In this document: piece by piece, positions 5,203-17,125 of the stretch
Layout of the letters: every line of letters starts with the position of its first letter
How positions within the stretch are numbered: the first letter of the stretch is position 1
Source of the DNA: a virus
DNA length: 22,381 bases
IMG/VR virus record: IMGVR_UViG_3300042402_001013
Span: 1-22,381 of that record
Direction: 5' to 3' (one strand)
Made by a program: the position numbers and the translations under genes
The notes under the pieces: model-generated
What the model was told of the DNA's origin: nothing
Seen by the model: only the letters and a program-made list of their open reading frames with translations
Databases searched by the model: none

Positions 5203-5435
5203 ACCATACTCCTTTGATTTTGGATTACTCGCTGCTCTTCAATATAGATCAGCCTATCAATATACCACTTAGCCTTACGAAGATCCTCAATACCATTCTT
5301 ATAACGATACCGACTCACATACTTTAGCACATTGCCCTGATGATAGTCAAGTGCCAAACCCTCAATGGCTGTAATAACTTCCATATCGCCTTGAGTATAA
5401 TGCTTAGGACTATTTACGGGATCATCAATTGCCAT
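5199..5435 (-). CDS. DUF3310 family protein
   Basis: This is a 78-residue protein with the DUF3310 pattern: VNSPKHYTQG at the start, then EVITAIEGLALDYHQGNVLKYVSRYRYKNGIEDLRKAKWYIDRLI. The family is common next to phage replication genes and is sometimes labelled nucleotide kinase-like, but its biochemical role is not settled. The start ATG 5435 was chosen because AAGGAGG lies 6 nt upstream; a longer frame inside the polymerase 3' end is less likely. It overlaps the polymerase C-terminal gene by 11 nt and the endolysin by 4 nt. Confidence 0.85.
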   Translation of the reverse strand: MAIDDPVNSPKHYTQGDMEVITAIEGLALDYHQGNVLKYVSRYRYKNGIEDLRKAKWYIDRLIYIEEQRVIQNQRSMV

Positions 5436-6168
5436 TGTATTCCTCCTTATCAGCCCAATTAGTAGTAGACCATTCGCAGTCTGTTTCAATACTAACGAAT
5501 TGTTCTACGATTTTATTCCCCATCAAGTAGGGAACATGTGTAACAAGATGGCTAATCTCTGCTTTATCTGCATCAATAATAATTTCGTCATGCACGATAT
5601 TGACAATGTGACTAGCACAATGCTTGTCTAGAAAGGTGCTGACCTTAACTACGGCATCCCGCATAAGATCAGCAGCGGAACCCTGAATGAGCGCGTTGAG
5701 TGCTTTATGGTGCTCTTCGACATGTAGCCGACGACCATACAAATTACTAATATACCCACGGCTATTCAGAGTTTCGCTTATTTGATTGTTTAATTCTGCA
5801 ATGCCCGGACGAGTCTCATGATAAGCCTTAAGCAATCGTTTGGCTTCTTTAAAGTCTACGCCTAGTTGTCGCATGATTGTAGGAGTACCACCACCATAGA
5901 TGATACTAAAGTTTAGTGTTTTACCAACTTGCCGCTGGTCGTCTGTGATGCGTTCCGATGCGTATAGTCCTTGGGCGGTAACAAGGTGCGGATCTGCTCC
6001 ATTGTTAATTTCGTTTGCAAGCGAATTGTCGTTGATCCCTCGTGACAAGTAGTAAGCGAGTAGACGGACTTCGATGGCTTTATAGTCAAAGAATAAGAAC
6101 GCATCCAACTTGGGAACAAACGCTCGTTTAACATCTTTCTGACTCCTTGGAATATTCTGTACATTCAT
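5425..6168 (-). CDS. polA: Family A DNA polymerase, C-terminal (palm and fingers) piece
   Basis: This 247-residue piece carries the whole polymerase active site. Motif A is DYKAIEVR (Asp28, Glu33, Arg35). Motif B/O-helix is RQVGKTLNFSIIYG (Arg79, Lys83, Phe87, Tyr91). Motif C is IVHDEI (His193-Asp194-Glu195). It begins MNVQNIPRS, which is the conserved NxQNIPR element normally found in the middle of a PolA chain. The exonuclease and thumb half is encoded separately at 6929-7870, with a glycosyltransferase gene in between. The ATG overlaps the glycosyltransferase stop (ATGA). Phe87 corresponds to the E. coli Phe762 position, so discrimination against dideoxynucleotides is expected. It must presumably assemble with the N-terminal piece to give a processive, proofreading enzyme; that is inference. 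Confidence 0.92.
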   Translation of the reverse strand: MNVQNIPRSQKDVKRAFVPKLDAFLFFDYKAIEVRLLAYYLSRGINDNSLANEINNGADPHLVTAQGLYASERITDDQRQVGKTLNFSIIYGGGTPTIMRQLGVDFKEAKRLLKAYHETRPGIAELNNQISETLNSRGYISNLYGRRLHVEEHHKALNALIQGSAADLMRDAVVKVSTFLDKHCASHIVNIVHDEIIIDADKAEISHLVTHVPYLMGNKIVEQFVSIETDCEWSTTNWADKEEYNGN

Positions 6169-6932
6169 GCAAACTTATCCTTAATAGCATCAGCATACTT
6201 GTTAGAGATTTCTGCTACGCGCTGTTGAATCTCAGCATTATGCACTCGCTGAGCAGTAGTATTACCAATATATTGTTTATACAACAACTTATCAATATGA
6301 TAATAATTATACTTAAGCATAGTACGAACCATCAACTCGTAATCATCAGCGACTTTGTATGACGGATTATGACCACCAAGTTCTTGATAAACACTACGAT
6401 CCCAAGCACGAACATGATTAGGCATACTAACAATATGACTCATCGTAGTAGCATTAATTTCTGGTGCTCGCATAACCCAAACACCATACTCATCATCATA
6501 ATACTCACTACCATAACCAAATGCCCAGCCTTCAGGATACTTACAAGACTCGCCAGCAGAATTAATCTCACAACAATTAGAATAAAAAAACTCTGCCCAA
6601 TTCAACAAGTACGCTTCCCACAACTCTTCAAGAGCAGTAGGAACTAACTCATCATCATGATCTAATTCTACAAGAAGATCACCATTACCCTGCATGAAGG
6701 CTGACAACTTAACCATACCAATGTTACCAATATTCTTATGAGAGCGATGCAAGTTAATAGTGTAACGCTCATCATTACAATAACCATACATCTGACGATA
6801 AACATTCTCGCTAGTAGAATCGTCCCACACTACCCATTCCCAATCAGTATAAGTTTGATTCTTTAGACTAGTCCATGTCCTAGCAAGGACACCGGGATCA
6901 GTCTCATAGGTTGGTGTAATAACACTAATCAT
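6165..6932 (-). CDS. Family 2 glycosyltransferase lying between the polymerase halves
   Basis: This 255-residue GT-A glycosyltransferase uses a nucleotide-sugar donor. The visible signature is ISVITPTYE at residues 2-10, VVWDDS (34-39), the DxD-type metal and sugar site DHDDE (91-95), and ADDYEL (195-200), which fits the catalytic-base region. The C-terminal pattern GNTTAQRVHNAEIQQR (223-238) is typical of the family. It has no membrane segment, so it acts in the cytoplasm. The acceptor is unknown: a phage structural protein, a host wall polymer or, less likely, modified DNA, because no hydroxymethylase is visible here. Its ATG overlaps the stop of the polymerase N-terminal piece, and its stop overlaps the ATG of the C-terminal piece. 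The frame is intact, so it looks functional and not like debris. Confidence 0.9.
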   Translation of the reverse strand: MISVITPTYETDPGVLARTWTSLKNQTYTDWEWVVWDDSTSENVYRQMYGYCNDERYTINLHRSHKNIGNIGMVKLSAFMQGNGDLLVELDHDDELVPTALEELWEAYLLNWAEFFYSNCCEINSAGESCKYPEGWAFGYGSEYYDDEYGVWVMRAPEINATTMSHIVSMPNHVRAWDRSVYQELGGHNPSYKVADDYELMVRTMLKYNYYHIDKLLYKQYIGNTTAQRVHNAEIQQRVAEISNKYADAIKDKFA

Positions 6933-7870
6933 GCTTCTGCTGCTCCACTACTCATCCGACCAGTACGAGTACCATGCTGACGAAAATTTGGATGTAGAAT
7001 ACCGTCACGCGCCTCAGCATCAAGACCATCAAAGTACGTTGTTTTAATTTTATTAGCCTCACGCAACTCTACAATCAACGATGCAAGTTCGTCATCCACG
7101 CTGGCAAGCGTAGCCTTGTCGGTTTTACTAATTCTAATTCCTCGCTCTTCAAACGCCGCAATGATTTGCGCTGGCGACTGAGGGTTGAATTCTGACCCGG
7201 ATATTTCTGCAATCCGCGCTTTCGTTTTATAAATTTTATCACCATACTCCTGACGTTGTTTCTTAACATACGACTTATCTATTTGTAGTCCTCGCGCTTC
7301 GATGCCCAAGAGGGAAATTGTGAGGGCTTTTTCAATTTCATACAATGGGCGCAAGTCTTCGGGCAATCTATTCCGTAGTACTTCGTAAAGCCGCAGCGTG
7401 AATTCTGCATCTTTTTTCGCATACGGCGCAAGAATTTCGTGTGGAATGGGCGCATAACCGTCCTCTTTCTTCATCTTGTTTTTACGTCGCCACGCCTTTA
7501 GCACCTCATCCTCGTCAGTCTCTTCGCCAAGAATCGTACGAGCAAGATACTTAAGGCTAGTAGACTGGTGCTCATCAATGAGATGGGCAAGGGCTTGTGT
7601 ATCCTCAAACTTATCTACAAACACGCTGAGTGGAATACCCAGCCGACACAACTTCTGGATATCAAACTTAGCATTATGCATAATGATCTTATCACAATTG
7701 ATAAGCATATCATATACATGTTGAACATGACTATGCCATTCGCCATGTTCGCAAATACGCTTATCATAAACATGGCTCCAGTCTTGTGTCGCTACGCTAA
7801 TCATGAAGGCTTCATCATGCCAACCCACACCAGTTGTCTCAGTATCAATAGCCAGTAGATCCAAACCCAC
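6929..7870 (-). CDS. polA: Family A DNA polymerase, N-terminal 3'-5' exonuclease and thumb piece
   Basis: This 313-residue piece holds the proofreading domain: ExoI AIDTET (Asp9, Glu11), ExoII MHNAKFD (Asn66, Asp70) and ExoIII YAKKDAEF (Tyr150, Asp154). The thumb and early polymerase domain follow, up to the conserved TRTGRMSS near residues 301-308. It then stops after a few residues (GAAEA), precisely where a full-length enzyme would continue into NxQNIPR. That continuation starts the gene at 6168. The start is GTG 7870, with a weak GGGG upstream; it overlaps the dUTPase 3' end by 26 nt. Exonuclease residues are complete, so proofreading should be possible once joined with the catalytic half. 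Confidence 0.92.
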   Translation of the reverse strand: MGLDLLAIDTETTGVGWHDEAFMISVATQDWSHVYDKRICEHGEWHSHVQHVYDMLINCDKIIMHNAKFDIQKLCRLGIPLSVFVDKFEDTQALAHLIDEHQSTSLKYLARTILGEETDEDEVLKAWRRKNKMKKEDGYAPIPHEILAPYAKKDAEFTLRLYEVLRNRLPEDLRPLYEIEKALTISLLGIEARGLQIDKSYVKKQRQEYGDKIYKTKARIAEISGSEFNPQSPAQIIAAFEERGIRISKTDKATLASVDDELASLIVELREANKIKTTYFDGLDAEARDGILHPNFRQHGTRTGRMSSGAAEA

Positions 7871-12932: not shown

Positions 12933-12982
12933 CTCTCTAATATATTCTTTCTTCACTTCGTTCAGAAAGAATATTTAGAGAG
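12933..12982 (-). promoter_or_regulatory. Leader hairpin with tandem G-A mismatches and GAA triloop
   Basis: On the minus strand CTCTCTAAATATTCTTTCT pairs with the matching right arm. Inside the stem lies GA-AC-GAA-GT-GA: two G-A mismatches, a 2-bp AC/GT stem and a GAA triloop. It sits between the antirestriction gene stop and the ribosome binding site of the gene at 12917. The same plan, with a different stem sequence, occurs at 13924-13971 and 16480-16531. Confidence 0.75.
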
Positions 12983-13923: not shown

Positions 13924-13971
13924 CTCTCTATAGAAAAGAACTTCACTTCGTTCAGTTCTTTTCTTAGAGAG
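13924..13971 (-). promoter_or_regulatory. Leader hairpin of the antirestriction gene
   Basis: On the minus strand the arms CTCTCTAAGAAAAGAACT and AGTTCTTTTCTATAGAGAG pair. Between them lies GA-AC-GAA-GT-GA, the same loop core as at 12933-12982. The outer CTCTCTA/TAGAGAG is shared, but the inner stem differs by compensating changes. The stop codon of the upstream gene (13964-13966) lies in the 5' arm, so ribosomes finishing that gene would disturb the fold. The ribosome binding site follows the 3' arm. Confidence 0.75.
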
Positions 13972-16102: not shown

Positions 16103-16471
16103 CTACGACTCCAGCCGCACCTTGCGCTGCACCTTGACGCGCTCGCCGCCGATCATGACGCTGACCGTGTTGCGACCACGCTTGCCCTGCCGACCGACCA
16201 CCGTGACCGACTCGCCACCAGAGGTGGCAAGAGCCATGTAGCAGACCTTGCAAATGCCTTCGGCATTCACACGCCGCGCCTTCTTGGCGAAGCCACAGCA
16301 CTTGCACTTCACCTTCTCAGCCTTCGGCTTCACATCCGCCACGAGGTCTTCGACCTTGGCAGCAGCCTCCACCACCTGCACACCCTGATCCTCGTTGAGG
16401 ATCTGGATCAGCATGGCAGCCTGCTCCGGGGAGAGAGCCTCGATCTTCGAAACGATGCTGTTGGAGTCCAT
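16103..16471 (-). CDS. Zinc-finger protein with disordered linker
   Basis: This 122-residue protein has a helical N-terminus (SKIEALSPEQAAMLIQILN) and an acidic, Ala-rich linker. A CKCCGFAKKARRVNAEGICKVC segment (written here in parts, residues about 56-78) has two CxxC-type pairs likely to bind zinc, and a basic strand-rich tail (GGERVKVQRKVRLES) follows. GC-rich codons are used. ATG 16471 has AAAGGA upstream and lies just after the hairpin at 16480-16531. It is the first leftward gene, so it may be expressed early and bind DNA or RNA; no family is recognised. Confidence 0.68.
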   Translation of the reverse strand: MDSNSIVSKIEALSPEQAAMLIQILNEDQGVQVVEAAAKVEDLVADVKPKAEKVKCKCCGFAKKARRVNAEGICKVCYMALATSGGESVTVVGRQGKRGRNTVSVMIGGERVKVQRKVRLES

Positions 16472-16479
16472 CTTCTTTC

Positions 16480-16531
16480 CTTTCTAGAGAGTTCTTCTTC
16501 TCACTACGTTCGAAGAAGAACTATCTGAAAG
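16480..16531 (-). promoter_or_regulatory. Leader hairpin of the first leftward gene
   Basis: The arms CTTTCAGATAGTTCTTCTTC and GAAGAAGAACTCTCTAGAAAG pair on the minus strand. Between them lies GA-AC-GTA-GT-GA: tandem G-A mismatches, a 2-bp stem and a GTA triloop. It is directly upstream of the ribosome binding site of the gene at 16471 and shares its core with the hairpins at 12933 and 13924. Confidence 0.72.
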
Positions 16532-16926
16532 GGAATAGAGGTTTCGGCGGCAAAACTCCCTAATCTCTCTCTATAGAGAGAGAGATTAGAAACATATCTT
16601 CTTTATCTAGACTAACTAATGCCAAAGGCACTTAGTTAGTATCTAGATAGAAGATATAAACCTAGACTACTAGAACTACGTTCAGTAGTCTAAGTGTACA
16701 ATACTACACAATCTTCGATTGTAGTAGTATTTGGCTTAGTTATACACTATCTACTAATACTATGTATTAGATAGAGAGTGTGTAGATTGGACTAATAAAC
16801 TATACCAACATAGTTGGTATAAGTATACTACTACTCTGTAGTAGTATATATATTATATACTATAGAGTAACATAGTTACTCTTAGTATATACTGGCTGAT
16901 AATAAAATATAATAAACCCTGTTTAT

Positions 16927-16955
16927 TATATAATATATTCTACTTGACTCGTAAA
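16927..16955 (-). promoter_or_regulatory. Possible leftward promoter
   Basis: TTTACG (16950-16955) and TATATA (16927-16932) on the minus strand are 17 bp apart, with TATAAT nearby at a longer spacing. It would make an RNA leader carrying the hairpin array before the gene at 16471. The -35 box is weak and AT-rich DNA gives such matches by chance. Confidence 0.3.
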
Positions 16956-17096
16956 ATACTCCCTACATTCTACTAGCAAATGCTAGTAGGCTCCTTGTAA
17001 AATATCAGGCTCCTCGCAACGTCACATGCGCATGCGTACCCCCGTTTACACCCTCCACAATATATATAATTACTATGCATATATTTTTGGTACATT

Positions 17097-17125
17097 TTGA
17101 GTTTGGCTTAGAATAATGGTATATT
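17097..17125 (+). promoter_or_regulatory. Rightward promoter of the packaging and head genes
   Basis: TTGAGT (17097-17102) and TATATT (17120-17125) are separated by 17 bp. Transcription should start near 17132, about 87 bases before the first rightward gene at 17219. The match is good for a host sigma-70-type RNA polymerase. Confidence 0.6.

Follow-up and report, generated by a model that had tools for sequence, protein, structure and literature searches.

The divergent region between the early genes and the TerL and portal genes of a phage genome fragment was found to be filled by an array of eleven stem-loops. The array is real, conserved among related phages, and selected for pairing. As judged from its sequence and position, it most likely corresponds to a new kind of folded leader RNA placed before the early genes, which fits no described RNA family.

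Genomic Context of the Array

The DNA analyzed, hereafter the window, was a 22,381-base virus record from IMG/VR that holds part of a phage genome. To the left of about position 16,470, its minus strand carries genes for a ribonucleotide reductase, a split family-A DNA polymerase, a primase/helicase, tRNAs, and an ArdC-like protein, and from about 17,330 onward the plus strand encodes TerL and the portal protein, with the array filling the intergenic region between this leftward early/replication operon and the rightward TerL/portal genes. The family-A DNA polymerase consists of two minus-strand ORFs (6929-7870 and 5425-6168, within 5425-7870 of the window), and a glycosyltransferase-like ORF (6165-6932, minus strand) sits between them; the same order of polymerase part, glycosyltransferase-like ORF, and polymerase part was seen in relatives L117 and L119.

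Direct DNA matches of the window were not found in cultured phages. Judged by its portal protein, the closest cultured relatives (23-28% identity) are phages of Arthrobacter, Microbacterium, and Cellulosimicrobium, which makes an actinobacterial host likely. No array was present in these relatives (Arthrobacter Jasminevirus, Microbacterium Shocker, Cellulosimicrobium DS1, and Manatee Spring podoviruses).

Excess of Hairpins and Folding over Chance

The initial annotation had described eleven adjacent inverted repeats, at least nine of them with C-NNN-G loops. All eleven were recovered as serial stem-loops at positions 16477-16989, and exactly nine are closed by C-NNN-G. Read on the plus strand, the loops of P1 to P6 are TAC, ATAG (a tetraloop), AAA, TAC, TTC, and TAT, and those of P7 to P11 are ATA, TCT, ATA, CCT, and AAAT (a tetraloop). 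Strict hairpins (score of at least 7, loop of 3-4) were counted in positions 16471-17000 and in 500 dinucleotide-preserving shuffles of the same region. Seven were present, against a shuffle mean of 0.46 (maximum 3), and five of the strict C-NNN-G type, against a mean of 0.03 (maximum 1). The comparison of folding with shuffled sequence that had been proposed as a check gave z-scores of about -13 to -17 for RNA or DNA on either strand: over 531 nt, -12.9 (minus strand) and -15.3 (plus strand) as RNA, and -13.8 and -17.0 for the two strands as DNA, with 0 of 100 shuffles folding as well in each of these four cases.

Pairing Is Kept in Relatives While Stem Sequences Drift

Searches with TerL and the first early gene as queries yielded more than a hundred related IMG/VR loci. 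Of the loci scanned, 45 carry an array of 6-14 strict hairpins in the corresponding position; 28 of these arrays are distinct, with 192 distinct stems among them. In the most different ones (L039, L052, L155, and L175), nearly all stems are unlike those of the window, and still they are near-perfect and their loops small. Covariation was analyzed on an alignment of 20 related sequences in the minus sense (A1), with partners slid by 1-3 columns and 500 shuffles as controls. In this alignment, 86.5% of the cells pair, against 32-47% with slid partners, and both sides have changed in 96 of the 161 pairs, against 41-62 when slid and with 0 of 500 shuffles reaching this value; the comparison by cells gave 337 against 66-124 in the slid versions. 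What is kept across relatives is the pairing, the C-G closure of the loops (87 of the 115 triloops in the 28 arrays), and a few motifs, whereas the stem sequences drift. The suggestion of the initial annotation that structure and not sequence is selected is therefore well supported by compensatory change, and its covariation check came out in favor, stems changing with compensation in the 96 of 161 pairs above.

A covariance model built on the P3-P2 portion (R1) gave minus-strand matches in the held-out loci L108, L090, L152, and L155, with E-values of 1e-11 to 1e-14, and no match in any relative without an array. With this model, P3-P2 was not recovered in L052, L174, and L175, whose arrays have diverged in this portion as well.

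Contigs L006, L028, L030, L033, and L065 end inside the array or within a few bases of it, which reflects either assembly breaks at the hairpins or a genome end. In the GC-richer loci L159 and L170, a different short structured element was found upstream of TerL (about 4200-4320 in L170), near the start of the leftward genes. It reads ACATACCC-TGAT-GGGTATGT, followed by TATCCGC/GCGGATA, of which a compensated variant, TATTCGC/GCGAATA, was also seen.

Individual Hairpins of the Array

All coordinates below refer to minus-strand features. P1 (16479-16532) lies just upstream of the first early gene, and its apex, CGAAC-GUA-GUGAG, carries tandem G.A pairs beneath a C-GNA-G triloop. A small hairpin, GUUUUGCCGCCGAAAC (16541-16556), which varies among relatives, separates it from P2 (16557-16592), whose long stem is capped by a conserved CUAU tetraloop (ATAG on the plus strand); the variants of the P2 stem in relatives remain paired, 14 of the 16 pairs of helix 13 being changed on both sides. 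P3 (16593-16658) is a 29-bp hairpin in which the apical GUGCC-UUU-GGCA, a bulged G, and a 2-nt bulge are conserved and the outer stem covaries. Triloop hairpins of the C-NNN-G type follow: P4 (16660-16695, C-GUA-G), whose position in relatives is occupied by different stems and loops; P5 (16700-16731, C-GAA-G), corresponding to helix 8, in which both sides have changed in 12 of 14 pairs; P6 (16744-16781, C-AUA-G); P7 (16800-16822, C-UAU-G), corresponding to helix 6, in which 97% of cells pair and 5 of 8 pairs show change on both sides; P8 (16824-16848, C-AGA-G); P9 (16854-16891, C-UAU-G), helix 4 of alignment A1; and P10 (16907-16931, C-AGG-G). The outermost hairpin, P11 (16970-16989), has an AUUU tetraloop and is absent from some relatives.

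With its outer strand, CCUUUC, P1 base-pairs with GAAAGG, the ribosome-binding site of the gene that begins at 16471, and this outer stem covaries in relatives (CCUUACU/AGUAAGG and CUCCUCUU/AAGAGGGAG), with 20 of the 25 pairs of helix 14 changed on both sides. In the subgroup formed by L052, L174, and L175, the ribosome-binding site lies outside P1, so occlusion of the site is a feature of the subgroup of the window and not a general mechanism. Two hairpins with an apical UGAACGAAGUGAA similar to P1, and with stems that differ, were found within the early operon, one (13932-13964, minus strand) ahead of the ArdC-like gene and its ribosome-binding site and the other (12942-12974, minus strand) before the next early gene. 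They lie directly before the ribosome-binding sites, have outer strands CUCUCUA/UAGAGAG, and are present in relatives too.

The apical P1 motif was considered as a phage-specific signal and rejected. Its cap, TGAACGNAGTGAA, is also present in repeats of unrelated bacteria, so that a stable cap common to many hairpins is the best reading of it. The unrelated bacterial contigs L179, L182, and L184-L188 carry repeats, GTCATCCTGAACGCAGTGAAGGATC among them, that share the P1 cap. The whole P1 hairpin is swapped as a block between L004 and the window, most of the adjoining array being nearly identical in the two.

Wobble Counts and the Strand of the Array

Wobble-type mismatches located between Watson-Crick flanks distinguish a G.U pair in a plus transcript from one in a minus transcript. 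Among the 192 stems of the 28 distinct arrays, the isolated mismatches read on the plus strand were 11 A.C and 1 G.T (p = 0.006), the former corresponding to G.U in the minus transcript. The clean-flank count on alignment A1 was 8 against 2 (p = 0.11), with the flank filter removed the two kinds were balanced (35 G.U against 32 A.C), and among confident interior pairs G.U made up 85 of 3164 on the minus and 59 of 3221 on the plus strand. Mutational bias is not a ready explanation of the polarity, as the unpaired bases of the arrays are without strand skew. The wobble test was downgraded as a decisive test between RNA and DNA, the unfiltered counts being even. G.U pairs are more frequent in many functional RNAs, and the stems of the array are almost purely Watson-Crick (about 2,000 such pairs against 12 isolated wobble-type mismatches), which leaves room for pairing at the DNA level. 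As the wobble counts are not uniform and wobbles are so few in the stems, we regard action as RNA only as more likely than action as DNA, short of proof.

GAA or GTA loops on one strand, pointed out in the initial annotation, do fall on the minus strand in the window, but their minus-strand excess across the 28 arrays is weak (24 against 12, p = 0.07). Among the roles that it had listed, a structured leader RNA is the best supported, by the wobble polarity, the P3 bulges, the position of P1 on the ribosome-binding site, and the P1-like hairpins; these features, along with the minus-strand matches of model R1 in held-out relatives, make a minus-strand leader RNA the probable form of the array.

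Flanking Block and First Early Gene

To the right of the array, alignment A1 and a landmark scan delimited a conserved block (16993-17100) with repeats of the ATTTTACA type on the minus strand, AACGGGGG (CCCCCGTT on the plus strand), and TATATAATTAC. This block is possibly a regulatory region, acting as a divergent promoter/operator; a consensus promoter scan returned no convincing sigma-70 promoter. The GC skew, proposed earlier as a check for an origin, reverses at the array (-0.32 to +0.32). As the genes change direction at this point too, the change in skew alone marks no origin, although together with the ATTTTACA-type repeats beside the array it makes an origin possible.

The first gene after the array (16103-16471, minus strand) encodes a Zn-ribbon protein of 122 aa whose C-terminal beta domain is basic. 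In every contig that has an array and extends far enough, this gene is the one directly after it. Locus L055, whose TerL is 85-86% identical to that of the window, has neither the array nor the Zn-ribbon gene. In L164, which has no array, and L165, whose array is down to four hairpins, the match to the Zn-ribbon profile is confined to its C-terminal part. The protein gave no Pfam, PHROG, or clear PDB match, and a fold search with its predicted structure (mean pLDDT 73) returned no informative match. The joint absence in L055 makes the Zn-ribbon protein a candidate partner of the array, and we tentatively propose, with more doubt than confidence, that it binds the leader. Their co-occurrence is consistent with a functional pair and also with a cassette exchanged as a unit, as adjacent genes can be gained and lost jointly without functional coupling.

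Discussion

The array matched no described RNA family. In scans with Rfam covariance models, GOLLD and ROOL included and low thresholds also used, only tRNAs reached the gathering threshold, and the sub-threshold matches in the array look like chance; a literature search found no published description of such an array. The intercistronic hairpins of T4, capped by UUCG, and the early RNase III sites of T7 are similarly stable mRNA structures, located just before ribosome-binding sites, with a free stem and a fixed cap, but in the array about eleven would be strung in one leader, most of them capped by C-NNN-G triloops, and in the subgroup of the window the ribosome-binding site is covered by one of them, P1. 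The put RNA of HK022, an antitermination leader, likewise folds at the beginning of an early transcript of its phage, as is proposed for the array; put, however, is made of two stem-loops of conserved sequence. GOLLD and ROOL, large phage-associated ncRNAs (PMC12286853), share with the array that they are large, structured, phage-encoded, and of unknown function, whereas the array matches no Rfam family, shows no fixed global fold, and lies in cis to one gene. A highly expressed structured ncRNA of unknown function has also been described in ICP1 (PMC7567579).

An intergenic setting comparable to that of the window was seen in locus L093, which is HMO-2011-like by its terminase small subunit and of an unrelated phage type. 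Its array (1749-2244), placed between the leftward terminase small subunit gene and rightward genes, contains about ten very long near-perfect hairpins, with stems longer than those of the window. HMO-2011-like cultured phages were considered as a model for it and discarded, as none among those examined has an array.

As to function, the array DNA may well encode a structured 5' leader RNA of about 0.5 kb of the leftward early operon with control in cis, a proposal for and against which we are evenly divided; that the leader regulates early gene expression in cis falls slightly short of that balance. Transcription of the minus strand would start within the conserved block, at a promoter near 17,000-17,100, and the transcript would fold during its synthesis into about eleven independent hairpins, whose pairing is the one revealed by covariation. 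The leader would end in P3 and P2, with bulges and loops kept as in a protein-binding site, followed by P1 as its last hairpin, whose pairing in this phage and its near relatives would include the first gene's ribosome-binding site. The hairpins might protect the leader and block ribosome access, and the product of the first gene, the Zn-ribbon protein, might bind the P3/P2/P1 end and so set the translation level of the early operon. A further version, which we consider doubtful, is a leader blind to sequence and coded by shape, in which interchangeable C-NNN-G hairpins, as RNA or DNA, would be bound by the Zn-ribbon protein and switch on the early genes. The hairpins would then be read by their number and geometry and swapped as modules, so that the array could drift in sequence with its function kept.

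A role at the DNA level, by cruciform extrusion or as single-stranded hairpins, located at an origin of replication or acting as the target of a structure-specific protein, is fairly unlikely. Only shape would be read in that case, leaving the sequence free, and C-NNN-G triloops favor compact DNA hairpins; these triloops, the nearly pure Watson-Crick stems, the strong DNA fold z-scores, the flip of GC skew at the array, and the ATTTTACA-type repeats beside it would all suit such a role. However, the skew follows gene direction, the wobble mismatches are polarized to the minus strand, asymmetric bulges are conserved in P3, P1 is tied to ribosome-binding sites and recurs far from any origin candidate, and L055 lacks the array in spite of its closely similar TerL. 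An abundant ncRNA acting in trans, processed from the leader near P1 and serving, for example, as a decoy for a host RNase or defense protein, appears quite unlikely, as the array always lies beside the same downstream gene, has no Rfam match, and varies in hairpin number and stems, whereas the architecture of GOLLD and ROOL is conserved. Its length and dense structure, P1 and P2 as conceivable processing points, and the phage precedents of structured, highly expressed RNAs of unknown function (ICP1, PMC7567579; GOLLD/ROOL, PMC12286853) would speak in its favor.

The stems, near-perfect and changing wholesale, and the exchange of the P1 module as a block between the window and its close relative L004 would be expected if the palindromes were a mutational by-product of replication, in which template switching creates and perfects them and selection for a function plays little or no part. 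This is very improbable, given that six to fourteen hairpins are kept at one locus despite wide divergence, that the CUAU loop and apical P3 are conserved, that the bias toward C-G closure is strong (87/115 triloops), and that such hairpins are scarce elsewhere in these sequences. Promoters of the N4 type, each C-NNN-G hairpin being recognized on supercoiled DNA by a virion RNA polymerase, have an almost negligible probability, although C-GNA-G triloops on the minus strand and the position before early genes would fit them. Stem sequence is constrained in N4 promoters, and no conserved promoter sequence was found in the hairpins of the array, whose stems differ between hairpins and relatives and which stand back to back without start-site spacing. 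No RNA polymerase was detected when the two largest virion proteins of the 44.6 kb relative G002 (1,925 and 1,093 aa) were scanned against Pfam and PHROG, so that the N4 precedent mentioned in the initial annotation gained no support. The likeness to the promoters of the N4 virion RNA polymerase (PMC4496689) lies in C-NNN-G triloop hairpins before early genes; the array differs in its tandem arrangement, in lacking a common stem sequence, and in that no such polymerase was found.

If the leader RNA reading is true, the array would represent a new phage RNA family at the early/late switch point of a widespread group of uncultured, probably actinobacterial, phages, and one largely invisible to sequence search, as it is mainly the pairing that is kept. 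It would also offer a concrete candidate RNA-protein pair, formed by P3/P2/P1 and the Zn-ribbon protein, for which the close relative without both array and Zn-ribbon gene provides a natural comparison.
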